Source of the DNA: Tomitella biformata AHU 1821 | GTDB taxonomy: Bacteria > Actinomycetota > Actinomycetes > Mycobacteriales > Mycobacteriaceae | Direction: 5' to 3' | DNA length: 64,000 nucleotides | Assembly: GCF_000524475.1 (NCBI RefSeq) | Contig: NZ_BAVQ01000009.1 | Coordinates: 62,001-126,000, forward strand | Part shown: one piece after another, positions 2,928 to 48,565 of the stretch | How the letters are laid out: each line of letters starts with the position of its first letter | How positions within the stretch are numbered: the first letter of the stretch is position 1 | Notes under the pieces: generated by a model | Databases searched by the model: none | Told to the model about the DNA's origin: nothing | Seen by the model: only the letters and a program-made list of their open reading frames with translations | Program-made: the position numbers and the translations under genes

Positions 2928-3941
2928 TCAAGCGGCGCTGCCCTCCGCCTCGAACAGCCGCGCCAGCACGTCGGCCAGCGTGATGACGCCGGCGATCGCG
3001 CCCTCCTCCACCACCACCGCCAGGTGCGTGCGGCTCTCCCGCATCGCGGCGAGTGCCTCGTGCGCGGGGGTGGACACGCCGAGCTCGAGGACCGGCCGCA
3101 TCAGCTCGGCCGCAGTGTCTCCTTCCGCGGCGAGGAGGGTGTCCCGCACGTGGACGACGCCGCGGGCGACGCCGTCGTCGAGCACCAGGATCCGCAGGTG
3201 GCCGGTGCGCATGGACGCCACGCGGATCTGCGCCGGCGTCGAGGCAGAGGCGACCACCGTGATCTCCTGGTCGCGGCGCAGCAGCGCGCCCACGGTCACC
3301 GTCTGCATCTCCAGCGCCCCGCTGAGCTGGGCGGAGTAGGCGGCATCGAGCGCCCCGACGTCCGCCGAGTGCTCGACGAGGTGCCACAGCGCCGCGGCGT
3401 CCTGCCCGCCCCCGACCTGGTCCGCGGGATCCACGCCCACCTTGAGCAGCAGCCAGTTCGCCATGTTGTTGAGCACCCGCAGCAGCGGGCGCGTGCACCA
3501 CATGAACCCCCGCATAGGAATCGCCAGCATGGTGGCCGAGCGCTCGGGGTGCGCGATGGCCCAGGACTTCGGGGCCATCTCGCCGATCACCAGGTGCAGG
3601 AACGTCACGATGATCAACGCGAGGACGAATCCCGCGATGTCCGCGCCCCACAGCGGCAGGCCCGCGGTGTTGAAGACGGGGGTCAGCCAATGGTGCACGG
3701 CCGGCTTGGTGATCGCGCCGAGCGCCAGGGTGCACACGGTGATACCGAGCTGCGAGCCCGCAAGTAGGACCGTCAGCTCCGACGCGCTGCGCAGGGCTGC
3801 GCGGGCAGACTTGCTGGTGGCGGCTGCGTCCTCGAGCCGGTGCCGCTTGGCGGAGATAAGGGCGAACTCCACCGCCACGAAGAACGCGCTGGCCGCGATA
3901 AGGACCACGGTCAGGGCCAGGACTATCCAGGGGTTGGACAT
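2928..3941 (-). CDS. CNNM/CorB-type membrane protein, short paralogue
   Basis: 337 residues. DUF21 transmembrane domain over about the first 150 residues, with hydrophobic segments near 5-25, 60-80 and 95-120, followed by a CBS-pair region containing GHLRILVLDDG and a second CBS near the C terminus. This is the hemolysin C-like CNNM family of magnesium/cobalt transport or homeostasis proteins. It lacks the C-terminal CorC_HlyC domain found in its upstream neighbour. Its ATG overlaps the stop of that neighbour (ATGA), so the two paralogues are translationally coupled and may act together. Confidence 0.88.
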   Translation of the reverse strand: MSNPWIVLALTVVLIAASAFFVAVEFALISAKRHRLEDAAATSKSARAALRSASELTVLLAGSQLGITVCTLALGAITKPAVHHWLTPVFNTAGLPLWGADIAGFVLALIIVTFLHLVIGEMAPKSWAIAHPERSATMLAIPMRGFMWCTRPLLRVLNNMANWLLLKVGVDPADQVGGGQDAAALWHLVEHSADVGALDAAYSAQLSGALEMQTVTVGALLRRDQEITVVASASTPAQIRVASMRTGHLRILVLDDGVARGVVHVRDTLLAAEGDTAAELMRPVLELGVSTPAHEALAAMRESRTHLAVVVEEGAIAGVITLADVLARLFEAEGSAA

Positions 3942-5308
3942 CAGCGCGCGTCCTCCTCAGTCTTGGATTCGGCCAGTCTCAGCCGCAGTTCGGATGGCAC
4001 ATGGCGGTCGATGCCGAGGACCTCGATGACCAGGACTCTCTCCGGCGACCCGTCCACCAACAGGCTGGCGGGGCCGGGATCGAGGGGGACGCGGATGCGG
4101 GCGCCCACCTCGGGCAGGTCGCGGTGGTAGGCGATGGCCAGGCCGGCGAGGGTCTCGTAGTCCCCCTCCGGCAGGTCGCGGCCGATCACCCGCTCGACCT
4201 CATCGATGTTCAGTCCGCCGTCGAAGCGCCAGGAGCCATCCGCGTCGGGCGGCCGCTCGGGGGCATCCGGATCGTGCTCGTCCTCGATCTCGCCGACGAG
4301 CTCCTCCGCGATGTCCTCGACGGTGAGGATCCCGGCGAAGCCGCCGTACTCGTCGACGACGCAGGCGAGCTTGCTCTTCGACTCGGTGAGCTCGGCGAGC
4401 GCGCGGGGCAGCGGGAGCGAGGCGGGCAGCAGCAGGGCCGGCCGCGCGATGTCCGCGGCTGTGCCTGCGTACGGCGGCTCCAGGGCCAGCACGTCATGTA
4501 GATGCACGACGCCCACAATGTCGTCGGGGTCCCCGCCGAGCACGGGGTAGCGCGAGTGCCCGGTCCCCATCAGCGCCCGCACCTTCTCGAGGGAATCTGT
4601 GGCGGCCACGGTGTCCACCCTGGTGCGGGGGATCGTCGCGTGCTCTACGGGGCGGGTGGGGAAGTCCAGGATCCGGTCGAGGACGTGGGAGAGCTCCGTG
4701 GGGAGGTCACCGGCCTGGCGCGACGCGGACACGATGTGCTCGAGGTCCCGGGCCGTTGCCGAGTGCTCGACGTCGTGGACCGGCTCGATCCGCAGTGCCC
4801 GCAGCAGCAGGTTCGACGCCTGATCGAAGAACCAGATCAGCCAGCCGAACAGCCGCAGGTAGATCGTGGTGGACCGGGCGAGTGCGCGGGCCACCGGCTC
4901 GGGCCGCGCGATCGCGAGGTTCTTGGGAAACAACTCCCCGAACAGCATCTGCACCAGCGTGGAGAACACCAGCGCGACCACCGTGCCGATGGCCAGGCCG
5001 ACGGCCGCGCCCAGGCCGATGTCGCCGAATACCGTGCCGATCGAGACACCGATCAGCGGCTCCGCGACATAGCCGACCAGCAGCCCAGTCACGGTGATCC
5101 CGAGCTGGGCGCCCGAGAGCATGAAGGAGGTCCTGCGGGTGACGGCGAGGGCACGCTCGGCGCCCGCGTCCCCAGCCTCGGCCTGGGCCTTCAGGCGGGA
5201 GCGGTCGACGGCCATGAACGCGAACTCTTGGGCCACGAAGTACCCGGTGATGGCGGTGATCAGCAGGACCGCGAGCACGCCGAGCAGCAGGGTGAGGAAC
5301 AACATCAT
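3941..5308 (-). CDS. CNNM/CorB-type membrane protein, full length
   Basis: 455 residues with the complete family layout: DUF21 membrane domain at about 1-190 (motif GYFVAQEFAFMAVDRSRL), a CBS pair at about 205-330 (GHSRYPVLGG, VVDEYGGFAGILTVEDI) and a C-terminal CorC_HlyC domain at about 350-435 (GLNIDEVERVIG, DYETLAG). Likely a divalent-cation transporter or regulator in the cytoplasmic membrane. First gene of a two-gene operon with the shorter paralogue. Two adjacent ATG codons (5308 and 5305) can start it; neither has a strong ribosome site. Confidence 0.9.
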   Translation of the reverse strand: MMLFLTLLLGVLAVLLITAITGYFVAQEFAFMAVDRSRLKAQAEAGDAGAERALAVTRRTSFMLSGAQLGITVTGLLVGYVAEPLIGVSIGTVFGDIGLGAAVGLAIGTVVALVFSTLVQMLFGELFPKNLAIARPEPVARALARSTTIYLRLFGWLIWFFDQASNLLLRALRIEPVHDVEHSATARDLEHIVSASRQAGDLPTELSHVLDRILDFPTRPVEHATIPRTRVDTVAATDSLEKVRALMGTGHSRYPVLGGDPDDIVGVVHLHDVLALEPPYAGTAADIARPALLLPASLPLPRALAELTESKSKLACVVDEYGGFAGILTVEDIAEELVGEIEDEHDPDAPERPPDADGSWRFDGGLNIDEVERVIGRDLPEGDYETLAGLAIAYHRDLPEVGARIRVPLDPGPASLLVDGSPERVLVIEVLGIDRHVPSELRLRLAESKTEEDAR

Positions 5309-14713: not shown

Positions 14714-14846
14714 CGTTGACTCCTAAACATCAGATTCTTAGTAGCGAGGGATGGCTGCCATGCGGATCTCGAAGGCGCCGAAGTTCGAGTGCGAATGCGG
14801 AGCTTCTTGCGGCACTGCACAATCCATCAGCTTTGTGATTGGACTC

Positions 14847-14875
14847 ACTGTAGCCACCGGCCACGCATGCGTCAA
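14847..14875 (-). promoter_or_regulatory. promoter/operator A of the cyclase-VOC-BVMO1 operon
   Basis: Reading the minus strand: -35 TTGACG (14875-14870), 17-base spacer, -10 TACAGT (14852-14847). The palindrome-like 15-mer on the plus strand, GTAGCCACCGGCCAC at 14850-14864, differs from the best copy (promoter F) at three positions. Same geometry as five other promoters in the window, always pointing at the adjacent operon. Position between -35 and -10 suggests a repressor site. Confidence 0.75.
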
Positions 14876-18228: not shown

Positions 18229-18257
18229 TTGACGCAAGAGTAGCCTATGGCTACAGT
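18229..18257 (+). promoter_or_regulatory. promoter/operator B of the OYE1 module
   Basis: -35 TTGACG at 18229-18234, 17-base spacer, -10 TACAGT at 18252-18257. The 15-mer GTAGCCTATGGCTAC at 18240-18254 is a perfect GTAGCC-N3-GGCTAC palindrome. It is followed by GATG as in promoters D and E. A 5' leader of about 210 bases would precede the OYE1 start codon; the duplicated module downstream of promoter E has a leader of similar length. Confidence 0.8.
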
Positions 18258-18476
18258 GATGCACGCCACTGTGCGTGCTGGGTTGAACCAAGCACTTCGT
18301 GCGACATCGATGCCTATCTGCGGCCCGACTACGCGAAGCGATTGCGGGCAGATGGATCGTCTCGGCGTGATCGCTGGAAGTGGGCACGCCTCCTTGTCAG
18401 CAACGCCGAAGCATCTCGTGATGCCGCCTCAGTTCGCTACGAGAGTCGTGGGAAACCCTTCAGGAAGAGGTATGAA

Positions 18477-25157: not shown

Positions 25158-25430
25158 GTGAGCGGATCACGCAGACGGTTCAGCCGGGAGTTCAAGGACG
25201 AGCTGTGCCAGGAGGTCGTCACCACCTCGCGCACGATCAAAGACGTCGCCGTGGCCTACGGCGTCGGCACGGAAACCCTGCGGACCTTGTTGCACAAGTA
25301 CCGCCAGGCCCATGGGGGCACCGAGACCGAGGTGACGCTCGATGAGCGGGCACGTCTGAAGGAGGTGGAGCGGTACAATGCCGAGCTTCGCGCGGAGACG
25401 GCGTTCCGGAAGAAGCAGCGGCTCACTTCG
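25158..25430 (+). mobile_element. IS3-family transposase OrfA remnant
   Basis: About 90 codons encode an OrfA-like protein: helix-turn-helix region RRRFSREFKDELCQEVV..TSRTIKDVAVAYGVGTETLRTLLHKYR, then the leucine-zipper-like LKEVERYNAELRAETAFRKKQ. Beyond this the frame stays open to 25661 but no longer resembles a transposase. The matching OrfB relic is found only about 0.9 kb further on, after an intact SnoaL-like gene. Confidence 0.78.
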
Positions 25431-25670
25431 CGCGGGAGCAGCGACAGTGAGCTGATACGAGTACATCGGCTCCTGCCGAAACGACCCCGCCAACACCGGC
25501 AAGGTAGCCGGAATCTCGTAGAGCATGGAGCCGTTCGGCTCGTGTATCCCAGCATCGAGGTGCCGACCAGGGGTCGTGATCTGCACCCGGACACCCGCGG
25601 TCCCGACCAGCTGTTCTCCGCGATGCGTGCCCCGGCCGAATGGGCGAACGCCGCCTGTTAAGTTCCTTCA

Positions 25671-26842: not shown

Positions 26843-26871
26843 TTGCCTCAACTGTGGCCACTGGCTACTGT
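26843..26871 (+). promoter_or_regulatory. promoter/operator C of the solute-binding protein gene
   Basis: -35 TTGCCT at 26843-26848, 17-base spacer, -10 TACTGT at 26866-26871, with GTGGCCACTGGCTAC at 26854-26868 as the operator core. The left arm and the -35 are the most diverged of the six copies, but spacing and the right arm are conserved. The start codon lies about 60 bases downstream. Confidence 0.65.
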
Positions 26872-28673: not shown

Positions 28674-29664
28674 TAGCCTCGATCTTTCATGAGGTGCCGG
28701 TGCTGGCCTGATCGGTTTCGGATTGCGGATTTCAGGCCGAGATTCGGCCGATGGCACCCAGGCATCGCCCGCTGACCGCGGATGAGGTCTGGGTTCCATT
28801 GCCCCAGAAGAAGATTCGCTCTTTCATCTCGTCGATGCTGGCCCCCGCCGGTCAGGACGGGGCGGGCAAGTCTTTGAGTCTGGCCAGACCGTGGGCAACC
28901 AGTTCCGACCACGGCGCGTGCGCCGACAATCTCAGCCAGGTGCGGCGGGCGTGCCGTGAGATTCTCGCGGCGATCGAGAACATCCGCAGGCGGAGACGTT
29001 TCGGCTCCCACCGCCGCGCCTCATGGCCGGTCAGGGCCAGCATCTGCATCCACGCCGTCAGCTCCGTCGCCAGGCCGACGATCGCGAGCCAGATCTGGTT
29101 CTGGCCGAAGTAGCGCAGCGGGAGATTCGTCAGGCCGGTGTCCTTCGAGTTTCGGATCCGGTCCTCGCAGCGCGCGCGTTGACGGTGCCGTAGCTCCAGG
29201 TCAGCGAGCTGCCCGCGCTTGGTGTTGGTGACGAACGCGGTGATCCGCAGGCCGTCAACGTCGGTGAACCGCAACTGGGCGCCCGGGTCGGGACGCTCCT
29301 TGCGGATGATCAGCCACATCCCGTCCGGCCAGCACGACAGGTCCGCCATATGCGTGAGCTCGGCGACCCATGCGCCTTTGCGGGGCATCCGATCGGCGTT
29401 GTAGGCCGGAGTCCACCCGTCCTTCGGGATCATGTTGATCAGCCCCGCGAGGGTCTCATTCAAAGTGCCAGCGTGGGACACGATCGAGGTTCCGGTGGTG
29501 TCGGGGGACAAAGCGGGGTACGGGCTTGTAGAGTTGCTCACCAGAATGGTGCTCCTTGTTCCTAAGATTATTGAACCGTCGCAAGTCCAATTATCGCAGG
29601 TCAGAGCACCATTCTTCTATTTTTCGGGGGCGTGTCGCTCAATCAGCGTGAAAGCCCGAGGCTA
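28674..29664 (-). mobile_element. IS1380-family element, internally deleted
   Basis: Imperfect terminal inverted repeats bound the element: TAGCCTCGATCTTTCA at 28674-28689 and, on the other strand, TAGCCTCGGGCTTTCA at 29664-29649 (14 of 16 match). Inside is one transposase frame of half the usual length, so at about 0.99 kb the element is shorter than the 1.6-1.7 kb normal for the family. A 12-bp perfect inverted repeat (29543-29554 and 29604-29615) lies upstream of the transposase start. No target-site duplication could be recognised. Confidence 0.75.
28852..29541 (-). pseudogene. IS1380-type transposase with in-frame internal deletion
   Basis: 229 codons. The first ~27 residues (MSNSTSPYPALSPDTTGTS) look like a genuine transposase N terminus; the rest is the C-terminal half, with ELRHRQRARCEDRIRNSKDTGLTNLP and FGQNQIWLAIVGLATELTAW typical of DDE transposases of this family. 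The N-terminal catalytic half, including the first acidic residues, is missing, so the protein cannot be active unless complemented by a full copy elsewhere. Confidence 0.78.
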
Positions 29665-35459: not shown

Positions 35460-36617
35460 CTATCGCGCCAGACCGAGGCCCCGCGTCGCGAGCACCATCC
35501 GCTTGAGTTGGGACGTTCCTCCGGCGTGGTTGGCAAATGACTGCCGGTACCACGCCTCGGGCTTTCCGTTGAGGGGTGCGTGTGCCGAGCCCGAGCGCAA
35601 CTGGCTGGCCGGGCCGAGCACTCGGTCGTAGATCTGCGCGAACAGCGGCTCGTACTCCTTGGCCGCGACCTGTTGGACGCCGCCGCCCCACGGGGTCTGC
35701 CGACCGTTGGCGTTGTCGCCGATGATCTCGTAGGCCAGCAGACGCTGCGTCTGGATCATCCCCGCGAGTTCAGCCAGGTCGGCCTGCGCGCGCGGATCGT
35801 CGAGCTTGCCCGGAATTGTTTTGCAGTGCGCGATCAGATCGCGCAGCCGAGACTCCTGCATCGCGTAGATCGGCTCCACCGTGCCCGACGCGTAGAAGGC
35901 CCGCATGATGTACTGCCAGCCTTTGCCCTCTTCGCCGATCAGCGAGGTCTTCGGCACGCGGACATGATCGAGGTAGGTGCTGGACTGGACGCCGCCGCCG
36001 TAGTTGCGCATCGGGTGGAGGGTGACGCCGGGACTGCGCAGATCGACCACGAAGATGCTGATCGCATCGCGCGAAGAGGGGTCGGTCGCCGTGCGCGCGG
36101 CCACATACAGGACGTCGGACATCGGCCCCCACGAGGTGAACGCCTTCTGCCCGGTGATGACCCACTCGTCACCCTCGAGGACGGCCTTCGTCTGCAGGGC
36201 GCCTAAGTCGGAGCCGGCCTCCGGCTCGGTCAGGCCCTCAGCCCAGAGGGTGCGCATGTTCGCGATGTCCGGAAGCAGTCGCTTCTTCTGCTCCTCGGTG
36301 CCACCCACCAGGATGGTGCCCGCGGCAAGGAAGATCCCGACCGTGTTGATCATCGGGGCGTCGGCCGCGTATAGCTCTTCCAGGAAGATCTGGTTCGCGA
36401 TTGGGGACAGCCCCTTGCCGCCATACTCCACCGGCCAGGTCAGTCCGATCCAGCCCTTGGCGGCGACCTTCTTGCTGAACTCGACGGCGATCGCCCACTG
36501 GTCCGGGGCGTCGTCGAACTCCGGGTTGAAGGCGTTCTCCTGCGGCAGCTCGGCGTCGAGGAACTCCCGGATCTCGGCCCGCCAGGCCTCATGCTCTTGT
36601 GCCAGTGTCATTCTCAT
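35460..36617 (-). CDS. acyl-CoA dehydrogenase, subunit 1-like (FadE26/ChsE1 style)
   Basis: 385 residues. N-terminal helical domain with GWIGLTWPVEYGGKGLS, middle domain with LTEPEAGSDLGALQTKA and ITGQKAFTSWG, C-terminal domain with GGTSQLKRMVLATRGLGL. The GxTWPxxYGG and EPxAGSD motifs mark the partner that binds FAD in heteromeric actinobacterial dehydrogenases. The ATG overlaps the stop of the Rieske gene by one base (TAATG), so it is translationally coupled to it. Confidence 0.9.
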   Translation of the reverse strand: MRMTLAQEHEAWRAEIREFLDAELPQENAFNPEFDDAPDQWAIAVEFSKKVAAKGWIGLTWPVEYGGKGLSPIANQIFLEELYAADAPMINTVGIFLAAGTILVGGTEEQKKRLLPDIANMRTLWAEGLTEPEAGSDLGALQTKAVLEGDEWVITGQKAFTSWGPMSDVLYVAARTATDPSSRDAISIFVVDLRSPGVTLHPMRNYGGGVQSSTYLDHVRVPKTSLIGEEGKGWQYIMRAFYASGTVEPIYAMQESRLRDLIAHCKTIPGKLDDPRAQADLAELAGMIQTQRLLAYEIIGDNANGRQTPWGGGVQQVAAKEYEPLFAQIYDRVLGPASQLRSGSAHAPLNGKPEAWYRQSFANHAGGTSQLKRMVLATRGLGLAR

Positions 36618-37660
36618 TACGCGTTTTCCGCCTGTAGTTCGTCGGTGCCTGCGGCCTGCTCAGCAGCGCCGTGGCCAAGTTCGCCCTCGGGGTAGAAGCG
36701 ACGAGCCCACTTCCGGATGGCCCGGAAGCCTGCGGCTTCCGCAGTCGCCAGGCCGGGCGGCTGGGTGTAGCGCTGGTGCTCCCAGATTGCGATGTCAGCC
36801 TGCACTTGTCTGATTGCGTTGCGCTGCCGCTTGAGCACACGAGATTCGTCCTCGCCATCTTCCTTGCTCGCCCACGTGGAGAACCGCAGGATCGAGAGCT
36901 CATCGTCAACCGGCGTCACCGCTGTCAGCGAGCAGATGGCCCCGACGCCGTCGGCGTGCGAGAAGCCCAGCCCCAGGCCCAGCAGCGAGGCCCTCGTGCG
37001 GCCCACCACGGTCTCAAACTCCCCGTCAGCGCCACGGCGCTTGAAGTTCAGGGCCAGCTCGGTCTTGAAGTCGTACTCACCGAACTCGCGGTTGACGACG
37101 GTCGGGATCTCGTCAGCACGGTGGACGTACTTGAAGTGCGCGAAGTCGACGCCGTTCTCTGCGGCGTACTGCGGATGGATCGGCAGCTCGGCTGTCTCGT
37201 AGCGGCCGCCCTCCCCCAGCCCGTGGTAGTCGTCCACCGAACCAGAGCCCGAAAACAGGTCGAAGATGCTAGGCACCTCGTAGAGCGGCTCGCCGCCGTT
37301 CGCGTCGTGCCAGATGTACATGACTCCGTCGCGCTCAGCAGTGGCCCAAGTACCGATCTTACGTACGCGGTTCGTCGCCTTTTGATAAGGAATGCAGGTG
37401 TTACGACCCTCCGGGCTCCACTGCCAACCGTGGAACGGGCACTGGATGTCCTCACCGTCAACCGAGCCGCCATGCCCCAGGTGGGCGCCGAGGTGCTCGC
37501 AGTATGCGTTCAGCACCACCAGCCGGCCACTCCCGGTGCGGTAGGCGACCAGGTGTTGACCGAAATAACGCAGAGGTTTCACGTCGCCAACTGCGAGGTC
37601 GGTAGACCAACCGAGTTGGAACCACCCCGTCGGCTTCATAGATAACGCCATAGGTGTCAT
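36617..37660 (-). CDS. Rieske non-heme iron oxygenase, KshA-like
   Basis: 347 residues. Rieske [2Fe-2S] motif CEH-x16-CPFHGW at about residues 54-77 and mononuclear-iron motif ENGVDFAHFKYVH at about 173-185, with the bridging Asp. YIWHDANGG and the single-component length resemble KshA, the oxygenase of 3-ketosteroid 9alpha-hydroxylase, and related monooxygenases of terpenoids. Electrons would come from the KshB-like reductase encoded about 7 kb away under the same operator class. ATG 37660 has a perfect CAGGAGGA site; promoter D lies about 170 bases upstream. Confidence 0.9.
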   Translation of the reverse strand: MTPMALSMKPTGWFQLGWSTDLAVGDVKPLRYFGQHLVAYRTGSGRLVVLNAYCEHLGAHLGHGGSVDGEDIQCPFHGWQWSPEGRNTCIPYQKATNRVRKIGTWATAERDGVMYIWHDANGGEPLYEVPSIFDLFSGSGSVDDYHGLGEGGRYETAELPIHPQYAAENGVDFAHFKYVHRADEIPTVVNREFGEYDFKTELALNFKRRGADGEFETVVGRTRASLLGLGLGFSHADGVGAICSLTAVTPVDDELSILRFSTWASKEDGEDESRVLKRQRNAIRQVQADIAIWEHQRYTQPPGLATAEAAGFRAIRKWARRFYPEGELGHGAAEQAAGTDELQAENA

Positions 37661-37828
37661 TTCGTCCTCCTGAACTGTTGCGACAGCGGCACTTCCGCCA
37701 ACTGCGCAGAGAATCTGCTCTACGTCACGGGCATTCACGGACAACAACCTGCAGATATGCCCCATGAAATGGCCCGTAGGAGCTCGGGAACCCTGCGATC
37801 ACTTCGGCAGCGGACCATAACCCCCATC

Positions 37829-37857
37829 ACAGTAGCCAATGGCTACCATTGCGTCAA
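37829..37857 (-). promoter_or_regulatory. promoter/operator D of the Rieske-ACAD-BVMO2 operon
   Basis: Minus strand: -35 TTGACG (37857-37852), 17-base spacer, -10 TACTGT (37834-37829). Core GTAGCCAATGGCTAC at 37832-37846 is a perfect GTAGCC-N3-GGCTAC palindrome. The site is also about 220 bases upstream of the divergent TetR gene, making that regulator a natural candidate. Confidence 0.8.
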
Positions 37858-38072
37858 CCGCCCCGCCGTGACACCACCCGCTACCGGCGATGCCACTGAC
37901 CTACATCACATGCTGGTTCGATCGTCTCCAGGTACTAGGTGTGGTAGAAAAAGGAGGTTCGAAAGAAATAATGTGACGTCGGAACACCCACGTTCCCCAC
38001 CATCGGCGCCGCAAATCCGGCGATGGTGTTCACCAATTACGCTGCTGCTGACCATGATAGGGTTTCCGCTAT

Positions 38073-39101
38073 ATGAAAGACCTCTGCGAAGTCGCCCTAT
38101 CCGCCGACGACGTATGGACCACGCCACAGGCGGCGGAGTTCCTGAATATCAGCCGTCAGGCGATAAATAAGCGCGTCCAGAATCGGAAGATGCTCGGCTA
38201 TCCGGGCATCGGCGTGACGTTGTTTCCGGTATGGCAGTTCGATCTAGAGAATCGCAGAGTCCATCCAGCCGTCCCTGAGCTTCTTACGGCATTCGATGAG
38301 GATATCGAGCCGCACACCATCGCCCGGTGGTCGATCACGAGAATCGATGAGTCAGGCCGAACACCGGCCGAACTGTTGCTAAGCCCGGACACCAAGCTGG
38401 ATGCACTTCGGTTGGCCAGCACCTGTGATCCCGGCCCGGTCGAGGAAATTCTTGCGGAGGCTGCCGAGTCCAGTGTGAAGCGCGCGGACGAGAATGTCGC
38501 CGAGTGGACGCCGTCCCGCGCAGGTTCGACCGGCGCGCAACACGCCATCCTCATCGCCGCCGCGGATCTCTTCTCGCGCAAGGGCCCGGCGAAAGTTTCG
38601 TTACGGGAGATTGCCGCCGAGGCGGATGTGTCTTACGGTCTGATCCATCGGTTCTATCGAACTAAAGAGAACTTATTGGTGGCGGTGATGGAATTGCTCG
38701 TCAGCTATGGCGGCGATCGTCTGTCCGGTGAGCACGACGCTTACGCCGCAATCGAGAACTCGTTCGGCGCCGACGTCGACGCGGGCCAGTTCGGCCGGAT
38801 GCTGACGTGGTCGATCTTTGAGGGAACTCGACCGGATCGCCTGCTCGGCGGGGTCCGTTCACGCGGCTATCGTGCGCAAATCGACGCATTGTGGGAAAAT
38901 CCGGTAGAGCCGCAAGTGCGGCCCGAGTTCGATTCAAACGTGGTGGCGTCTCTGCTCGCCCTCGTCGGCGCGGTGTGGGATCTCTACGAGCCGTACCTCA
39001 CCGAGCTCGCCGACAATCCGAGTCGCGGTCGAGAAGACGTCCGACAGGAAGTCACCGACATCCTCAAAATCCTCGTTTTCGCGACCCGCCCGAGCAAGTA
39101 G
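38073..39101 (+). CDS. TetR regulator with extra N-terminal HTH domain
   Basis: 342 residues, well above the ~200 usual for TetR proteins. Residues ~13-45 form an excisionase/HTH_17-like helix-turn-helix (TTPQAAEFLNISRQAINKRV); residues ~85-105 contain a GRTPAELLL...LDALRLA segment reminiscent of Xre/MbcA-ParS antitoxins. After a linker, residues ~148-205 are a canonical TetR DNA-binding domain (LFSRKGPAKVSLREIAAEAD, SYGLIHRFYRTKENLL), then a ligand-binding helical domain. Two DNA-binding modules in one chain are unusual. Divergent from the Rieske operon; ATG 38073 lacks a strong ribosome site. Confidence 0.82.
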   Translation: MKDLCEVALSADDVWTTPQAAEFLNISRQAINKRVQNRKMLGYPGIGVTLFPVWQFDLENRRVHPAVPELLTAFDEDIEPHTIARWSITRIDESGRTPAELLLSPDTKLDALRLASTCDPGPVEEILAEAAESSVKRADENVAEWTPSRAGSTGAQHAILIAAADLFSRKGPAKVSLREIAAEADVSYGLIHRFYRTKENLLVAVMELLVSYGGDRLSGEHDAYAAIENSFGADVDAGQFGRMLTWSIFEGTRPDRLLGGVRSRGYRAQIDALWENPVEPQVRPEFDSNVVASLLALVGAVWDLYEPYLTELADNPSRGREDVRQEVTDILKILVFATRPSK

Positions 39102-43214: not shown

Positions 43215-43441
43215 TCCATACCTCTCCTTGAAGGGCTTTCCACGACTCTCGAGACCAGTTGAGGAGGCATTACTAGACGCTGCGGCGCTCCCCGATAAAG
43301 AGCAATTCCTGTGACAGCCTCCGGTGACAACGCCGCGATCATCCGTCTGCCCTCAATCACACTGCGCAACTGGCGCTACAGGAGGGCGGCAACAGTGAGC
43401 GAGTCGCCACATCCGCCCCAGCTCGCGCAGTGTCCTACATC

Positions 43442-43470
43442 ACTGTAGCCATTGGCCTCTTAAGCGTCAA
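43442..43470 (-). promoter_or_regulatory. promoter/operator E of the OYE2 module
   Basis: Minus strand: -35 TTGACG (43470-43465), 17-base spacer, -10 TACAGT (43447-43442). Core GTAGCCATTGGCCTC at 43445-43459: one arm intact, the other with two changes. Downstream of the -10 the GATG of promoters B and D is conserved. The remaining intergenic sequence (43215-43608) shows nothing else. Confidence 0.75.
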
Positions 43471-48442: not shown

Positions 48443-48536
48443 CGATTCCTCCTTGTGCAAGGCGTGAATGCCACCGGCCGCCTCGGACTCGCACGGTTTG
48501 ACGTGACAGCAGTCACTATGTTTGACCGCTAGGAGC

Positions 48537-48565
48537 ACTGTAGCCATTGGCTACTTTTTCGTCAA
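48537..48565 (-). promoter_or_regulatory. promoter/operator F of the hydrolase-SDR-BVMO3 operon
   Basis: Minus strand: -35 TTGACG (48565-48560), 17-base spacer, -10 TACAGT (48542-48537). Core GTAGCCATTGGCTAC at 48540-48554 is a perfect GTAGCC-N3-GGCTAC palindrome and served as the reference for finding the other five. Confidence 0.82.

Follow-up and report, generated by a model that had tools for sequence, protein, structure and literature searches.

TetR repressors usually consist of one helix-turn-helix (HTH) and one ligand domain. In the Tomitella biformata DNA analyzed here (a stretch of 64,000 nt, hereafter the window), a TetR-type regulator within an island of genes bearing a recurrent palindrome begins with a further module. 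What is this module, and which part of the protein reads the palindrome? The first-pass annotation proposed two DNA-binding-type modules in one 342-residue chain, with an Xre/MbcA/ParS-like element before a full TetR domain, and this layout is upheld (Table 1). The fusion regulator appears best read as a TetR repressor that has gained a second, antitoxin-type DNA-binding head.

Table 1. Features of the fusion regulator and its candidate operators in the window (res, residues; wHTH, winged HTH).
Feature	Position	Strand	Basis or remark
Fusion regulator CDS	38073..39101	+	ORF, 342 aa, ATG start; full length kept in 16 further proteins
N-terminal wHTH, Rv2175c-like	38112..38246 (res 14-58)	+	profile, model, fold match, conservation
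MbcA/ParS-like helical subdomain	38247..38423 (res 59-117)	+	profile, fold match, conservation
Variable linker	38424..38528 (res 118-152)	+	30-49 aa across 17 family members
TetR DNA-binding domain	38529..38699 (res 153-209)	+	Pfam TetR_N 159-205
TetR C-terminal domain, presumed ligand/dimer domain	38700..39098 (res 210-342)	+	alignment, model, Foldseek
TAGGGT, -10-like hexamer	38058..38063	+	9 nt before ATG
KshA_C/Rieske oxygenase, first gene of divergent operon	36617..37765	-	true start possibly near 37663
Composite promoter-operator, Rieske/acyl-CoA operon	37827..37857	-	palindrome 37832-37846, -35 TTGACG 37852-37857, -10 TACTGT 37829-37834
Composite promoter-operator before OYE-type gene	18229..18259	+	pattern search
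Composite promoter-operator, 1 mismatch, before cyclase-family gene	14845..14875	-	pattern search
Composite promoter-operator, 2 mismatches, before OYE-type gene	43440..43470	-	pattern search
Composite promoter-operator, 1 mismatch, before alpha/beta-hydrolase - SDR - FMO/BVMO-type operon	48535..48565	-	
Weaker operator copy (1 mismatch, poor -35) before family-5 solute-binding protein gene	26854..26868	+	

The TetR domain is complete: TetR_N (PF00440) matches residues 159-205 (E 1.3e-12, 47.7 bits against a curated cut-off of 24), where residues 148-205 had been given earlier. The C-terminal domain consists of helices only in the full-length model, at a pLDDT near 50, and the top 50 Foldseek matches are mostly TetR-type proteins at low TM, with TetR structures on top. 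At pLDDT 62 and pTM 0.42, the full-length model is too poor to give the relative placement of the two modules. In alignments of the fusion proteins two blocks are conserved and the linker between them varies, with mean pairwise identities among 17 sequences of 0.71 for the wHTH, 0.48 for the ParS-like subdomain, 0.27 for the linker, 0.78 for the TetR HTH and 0.63 for the C-terminal domain.

Is the N-terminal module translated? Four open codons only precede the ATG of the fusion gene, and 11 of 18 fusion genes, where 0.84 would be expected, have a TANNNT hexamer 5-10 nt upstream of the start, with misses at L015b, L016 and L028, which were scored from non-start-codon positions. At L016 the same hexamer precedes an ATG nine bases upstream, and at L029 and L030 a purine-rich, Shine-Dalgarno-like stretch takes its place. 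The arrangement suggests a leaderless transcript from the annotated ATG at 38073. Given this hexamer and the conservation of the module, the latter is apparently translated, and the downstream start at the TetR domain that the first-pass annotation had raised as an objection seems not to be used. Inverted repeats near the fusion start were set aside as candidates: GGATTCG-N5-CGAATCC is present in L013, L023 and L024 only, and the window repeat CACCATCGGCG/CGGCGATGGTG is missing from the other orthologs.

A dedicated AlphaFold2 model of the N-terminal module (mean pLDDT 92.3, pTM 0.85) contains the expected HTH (helices 11-18 and 22-30 in model numbering) and a wing. No Pfam model scores above its cut-off in this part of the protein. 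The HTH_17-like segment noted earlier is matched at residues 16-46, but below the cut-off of 27 bits (13.9 for the full protein, 15.4 for the N-terminal part, 13.9-16.1 overall); the best N-terminal match, HTH_23 (E 0.0009), is also under its cut-off, and the excise model reaches 12.9 bits against 28.8. The GRTPAELLLSPDTKLDALRLA stretch is present, but at residues 95-115, some 10 beyond the position first reported. A PDB search with the single N-terminal-half sequence gave no match. Weak secondary matches led to shorter stand-alone proteins with the same module at the C-terminus, and profile-profile comparison joins the fusion and stand-alone modules (probability 99.4, E 3e-21). Searched against PDB sequences, a profile of 11 fusion modules alone finds Rv2175c at E 0.23, one of stand-alone modules alone at E 2.4e-4, and the joint 57-row profile (entry 2kfs) at E 3.2e-13 over 108 profile positions, the whole module. 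The joint profile also retrieves MbcA (6fkg, E 2.2e-5) and, weakly, ParS (0.2) and Xre (0.54); matches to designed ankyrin proteins (best 1.4e-5, ~28 positions) and an oxidase (0.015) were rejected as spurious for their short or odd coverage.

Structure comparison agrees with the profiles. The best Foldseek match of the module model is 2kfs (TMq 0.76, E 1.2e-3; none at E 1e-3 or better), and VIA-align places Rv2175c at Z 13.2 (rmsd 2.2, 109 residues), with the next best at Z 7.0 over the wHTH only, in a listing where the absence of a family carries no evidence. The Pfam models Rv2175c_wHTH, Rv2175c_C and Xre_MbcA_ParS_C (PF09722) do not match the window fusion protein; at E 0.1 they match 16, 10 and 18 of the 57 homologous modules, respectively. 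The N-terminal module (residues ~14-117) is thus one Rv2175c-like wHTH plus MbcA/ParS-like unit of antitoxin type, rather than an excisionase HTH followed by an independent Xre segment, as first described. The excisionase label is dropped, with HTH_17 and excise under cut-off and Rv2175c covering the whole module; that coverage, and stand-alone relatives beside RES genes, argue for an antitoxin-type module.

How does the protein compare with known systems? Rv2175c shares the wHTH and helical subdomain along the whole module, but is a stand-alone protein of 146-148 residues in the PDB entry, ~19% identical to the model and without a TetR domain. It is described as a winged HTH protein with PknL phosphorylation at Thr9 (PMC4601284). 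In Xre/MbcA/ParS antitoxins (6fkg, 6gw6, 9r35, 6d0h) it is the C-terminal subdomain that aligns (Xre at Z 5.8) and, as with these antitoxins, RES genes adjoin stand-alone homologues of the fusion module; in contrast, the fusion HTH is of the Rv2175c/MerR-like type and the module is N-terminal, with no free C-terminus. One Xre-RES complex is described as having two potential DNA-binding sites (PMC12204516). BldC (Z 7.0), Xis (5.0-5.8) and MerR-type proteins (up to 5.7) match the wHTH alone, over ~50 residues only. The fusion resembles TetR family repressors in TetR_N, fold matches and a 15-bp palindrome with 7-bp arms, and differs from them in the extra ~117-residue N-terminal DNA-binding-type module and linker.

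The stand-alone relatives place this module in a toxin-antitoxin setting. It ends no more than 10 aa from the C-terminus in 42 of 43 stand-alone ORFs, a set that includes near-duplicates. Following ORFs were listed for 21 stand-alone genes and seven were tested, of which five hold RES domains above cut-off and two (L051, L059) do not; a Klebsiella plasmid record has a RES family NAD+ phosphorylase annotated beside a module homologue on the opposite strand. At L039, L041, L042, L052 and L037, Rv2175c-like stand-alone genes overlap or abut the RES genes. This genomic context suggests that Rv2175c itself may be a member of a RES antitoxin family. No GTGA-N6-TCAC or visible common palindrome was found upstream of the 21 stand-alone genes, whose start codons were guessed.

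The fusion is confined to a small set of genomes. The first relatives found are full-length matches at 77% and 55% identity, and seven named contigs (six Rhodococcus records and one Nocardia) carry full-length homologues at 70-82%. Sixteen further full-length proteins, 45-82% identical to the window protein, keep the module, which argues that it is more than a chance arrangement. Of 401 family genomes, 16 are matched by the N-terminal profile, at 17 places in all (E <1e-35), with the next matches only at 1e-10, in searches that scored the top candidates per genome and may have missed some; the survey of the architecture proposed at the outset thus yields 16 fusion-bearing genomes. Six of the seven named contigs apparently fall within these 16, so the counts are not additive. 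Across 396 genomes of the phylum, T. biformata gave the only fusion-level match among those listed, the others being at E 2.8e-12 or weaker (module matches, the TetR half not verified singly). A full-length search of 397 genomes of the order, taking the best five candidates per genome, matched at least three genomes and is left out of the counts. In a tree with 39 stand-alone modules, the 18 fusion modules all group in a single clade (support 100/99, 100% of 200 bootstrap trees), for which the simplest reading would be that the fusion arose once.

Some individual loci deserve mention. L015 has a second, diverged fusion regulator within its island (3174-4253, 55% identity), with no palindrome at three or fewer mismatches in the 450 bp upstream. 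At L016 (Rhodococcus sp. JCM 9791) the fusion gene gives broken tblastn matches, as though interrupted by frame breaks, and the ADH, acyl-CoA dehydrogenase, hydratase and monooxygenase genes do likewise, perhaps through poor assembly rather than many pseudogenes. An Embleya plasmid match (query 72-340), considered as a fusion, proved to be a plain 204-aa TetR. No TetR-antitoxin fusion or its operator appeared in the titles and abstract openings of open-licence papers.

The island palindrome is a 15-bp candidate operator with 7-bp arms. GTAGCCANTGGCTAC lies within the 17-bp spacer between the -35 (TTGACG) and -10 (TACNGT) elements, and strong copies share the context TTGACG, 5 nt, palindrome, nGTGA. 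With up to two mismatches allowed, the window has 14 copies of GTAGCCNNNGGCTAC where 2.0 would be expected, and 0 of 100 shuffles reach 14. Three copies are perfect, and the three perfect copies in the 4.7-Mb genome are all inside the window (reversed control, one); the one reported at the divergent operon is confirmed at 37832-37846. The 31-nt composite, at up to three mismatches, is found at five places in the T. biformata genome, all in the island (reversed control, 0). At up to two mismatches it is present in 16 of 401 family genomes from seven genera (reversed control, one genome, G399), exactly the 16 that carry the fusion at E <1e-35, the search pattern having been built on sites of the window and its orthologs ahead of the genome survey. 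As this is co-occurrence among related genomes, it represents far fewer than 16 independent events. The link between palindrome and fusion, already drawn in the first-pass annotation, appears strongly supported by this co-occurrence.

In 16 of 16 ortholog regions (14-19.5 kb; two of them, L010 and L122, from one genome) an operator, defined as a palindrome with up to two mismatches and at least 4/6 of TTGACG, lies 54-164 bp from the edge of the Rieske (KshA_C) tblastn match. The order of the fusion gene, ADH and Rieske operon varies across these regions. Upstream of the fusion gene itself, a palindrome (0-2 mismatches) is found in orthologs near the window protein and not in distant ones: within 450 bp none occurs at up to three mismatches in L015b, L027, L028 and L029-L032, and L006 has a 3-mismatch match only. 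At L027-L032 and L006 the operator stands by the Rieske operon rather than the fusion gene. Paired perfect operators lie between the ADH and Rieske genes at L117 (261/475, 214 bp apart) and, in a different genus, at L119 (11995/12205, 210 bp apart); these spacings, near 20 helical turns, could be used by a DNA-bridging repressor.

Genes under or near the sites encode a KshA-type Rieske oxygenase, acyl-CoA dehydrogenases, an enoyl-CoA hydratase, an acyl-CoA synthetase, FMO/BVMO-type enzymes, an alpha/beta-hydrolase, SDRs, ADHs, OYE-type enzymes, a 2Fe-2S flavin reductase, cyclase-family proteins and a solute-binding protein. From these gene families and known pathways, the island is suggested to degrade a cyclic ketone, (mono)terpenoid or steroid-like compound. 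In the OYE-type ORF listed from 18156, the Oxidored_FMN domain does not begin before residue 111, and the real start codon thus probably lies beyond the 18229..18259 site. Transposase pieces (HTH_Tnp_1, DDE_Tnp_1_4) at 25158-25661 and 28852-29541, inside the lower-GC island, would fit an island that is mobile or has been rearranged.

Which module reads the palindrome? Five TetR relatives lack the N-terminal module (those of G016, G115 and G013, a T. biformata paralogue and the Embleya protein), and the 57-row profile finds no module in their loci. Each of the five loci contains one TAGCC-N(3-4)-GGCTA, against 0.000-0.007 expected per locus under a first-order Markov model and a single site in a background of 129,102 bp from loci selected on grounds other than TetR, including four with distant fusion genes (L029-L032). 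The site is at or just before the TetR gene start at L125, L126 and L009, past the TetR 3' end in L127 and ~3.1 kb off in Embleya. The half-sites are spaced by 3 nt in fusion operators, as fixed by the search pattern, and by 4 nt in four of the five module-less loci; four Rhizobium plasmid TetR matches (36% of the query or less) stood outside this comparison. Since relatives without the module have the same half-sites, the TetR half is most likely the reader of the palindrome. The N-terminal module is disfavoured as reader of the GTAGCC palindrome by the five of five examined relatives that keep the half-sites without it, and no DNA site specific to the module was found. The T. biformata paralogue (L009:2142 on G000:C107; reverse-strand TetR gene 1495-2148) carries around its start a GTAGCC-N4-GGCTAC that exceeds the island operator in width by one base, which could mean cross-talk or a twin regulon that has diverged.

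We consider it likely that the fusion is a TetR-type island repressor blocking promoters via GTAGCCANTGGCTAC, with the linked antitoxin-type module adding DNA contacts. The TetR half of the dimer would bind GTAGCCANTGGCTAC at its observed position between -35 and -10 and would block RNA polymerase at the Rieske/acyl-CoA and other island operons, and an island substrate or metabolite may release the repressor at the C-terminal domain, as is general in the TetR family. On its flexible linker the module would form a second pair of winged-HTH heads, most likely touching flanking or neighbouring operator DNA, perhaps with weak specificity, and raising occupancy. Only tentatively can this be extended to an antitoxin head captured once by a TetR protein, whose dimer with four HTHs would bind two sites for cooperative or looped island-wide repression.

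Might the module have lost DNA contact and serve dimerization or folding only? Module-less TetR relatives keep the half-site, so the module is dispensable for recognition; however, both recognition helices are equally conserved (0.80 identity in each half among the 17 fusion proteins) and S27, R28, Q29, A30, N32 and R34 of the N-terminal HTH are invariant, which makes this unlikely. The reverse proposal, that the module occupies GTGAYNNNNRTCAC and the TetR half GTAGCCNNNGGCTAC with one dimer per composite operator, draws on the two DNA-binding-type modules and flexible linker in one chain and on a second palindrome, GTGAY-N4-RTCAC, that abuts the operator among 50 composite sites (up to three mismatches, picked by similarity and mutually related). 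Its right half, absent from the search pattern, is conserved at a fixed phase (T 41, C 44, A 40, C 43 of 50). However, the element exceeds its reversed control in the T. biformata genome (30 versus 8) and in 4/4 fusion-less genomes (18/8, 20/5, 10/3 and 31/9), as a CRP-type site would, and it also flanks the operator in two of the five module-less relatives (exactly in L127, with one mismatch in L125). Its spacing varies at alpha/beta-hydrolase promoters and the window copy at 37832 is degenerate. The CRP/GlxR consensus is TGTGANNNNNNTCACA. Being enriched in fusion-less genomes too, GTGAYNNNNRTCAC appears CRP-like, and a common CRP-type regulator is its likelier reader than the fusion. As this is the single such element found, the earlier idea of a second element contacted by the module is so far not supported, and neither is the suggested bridging of operators; a dimer spanning both palindromes seems decidedly improbable.

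A RES toxin could instead bind the MbcA/ParS-like part, alter repression and couple toxin-antitoxin function to catabolism. Stand-alone homologues do lie beside RES genes and 13 of the 16 fusion genomes have one, but the other three give no RES match at E 1e-5, so that a RES partner is seemingly not required. The fusion gene has Rieske oxygenase and ADH neighbours and no RES toxin in its operon, and the two RES matches of its own genome are on contigs C31 and C110, unlike the window (C104). In the fusion, moreover, the module continues into linker and TetR instead of ending near a C-terminus, and its ParS-like half is less conserved than the wHTH. We hold toxin sensing to be very improbable. 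Least probable of all is another regulator reading the palindrome with the fusion as bystander: several genomes have no palindrome in the promoter of the fusion gene itself, yet fusion and operator occupy identical genomes, the half-site stays with the TetR subfamily also where no fusion is present, and neither other regulator of the island (IclR-type, EthR-like) is matched in the 16 ortholog regions at E 1e-15.

What the locus offers is an apparently single-origin, conserved fusion that amounts to a natural experiment in the construction of a four-headed repressor. Judged by genome content, the fusion regulator and one particular operator travel together across seven genera, and this defined operator with its 16-genome regulon opens the system to tests on short DNA. 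Rv2175c, too, is thereby linked to a protein family encoded beside RES genes.
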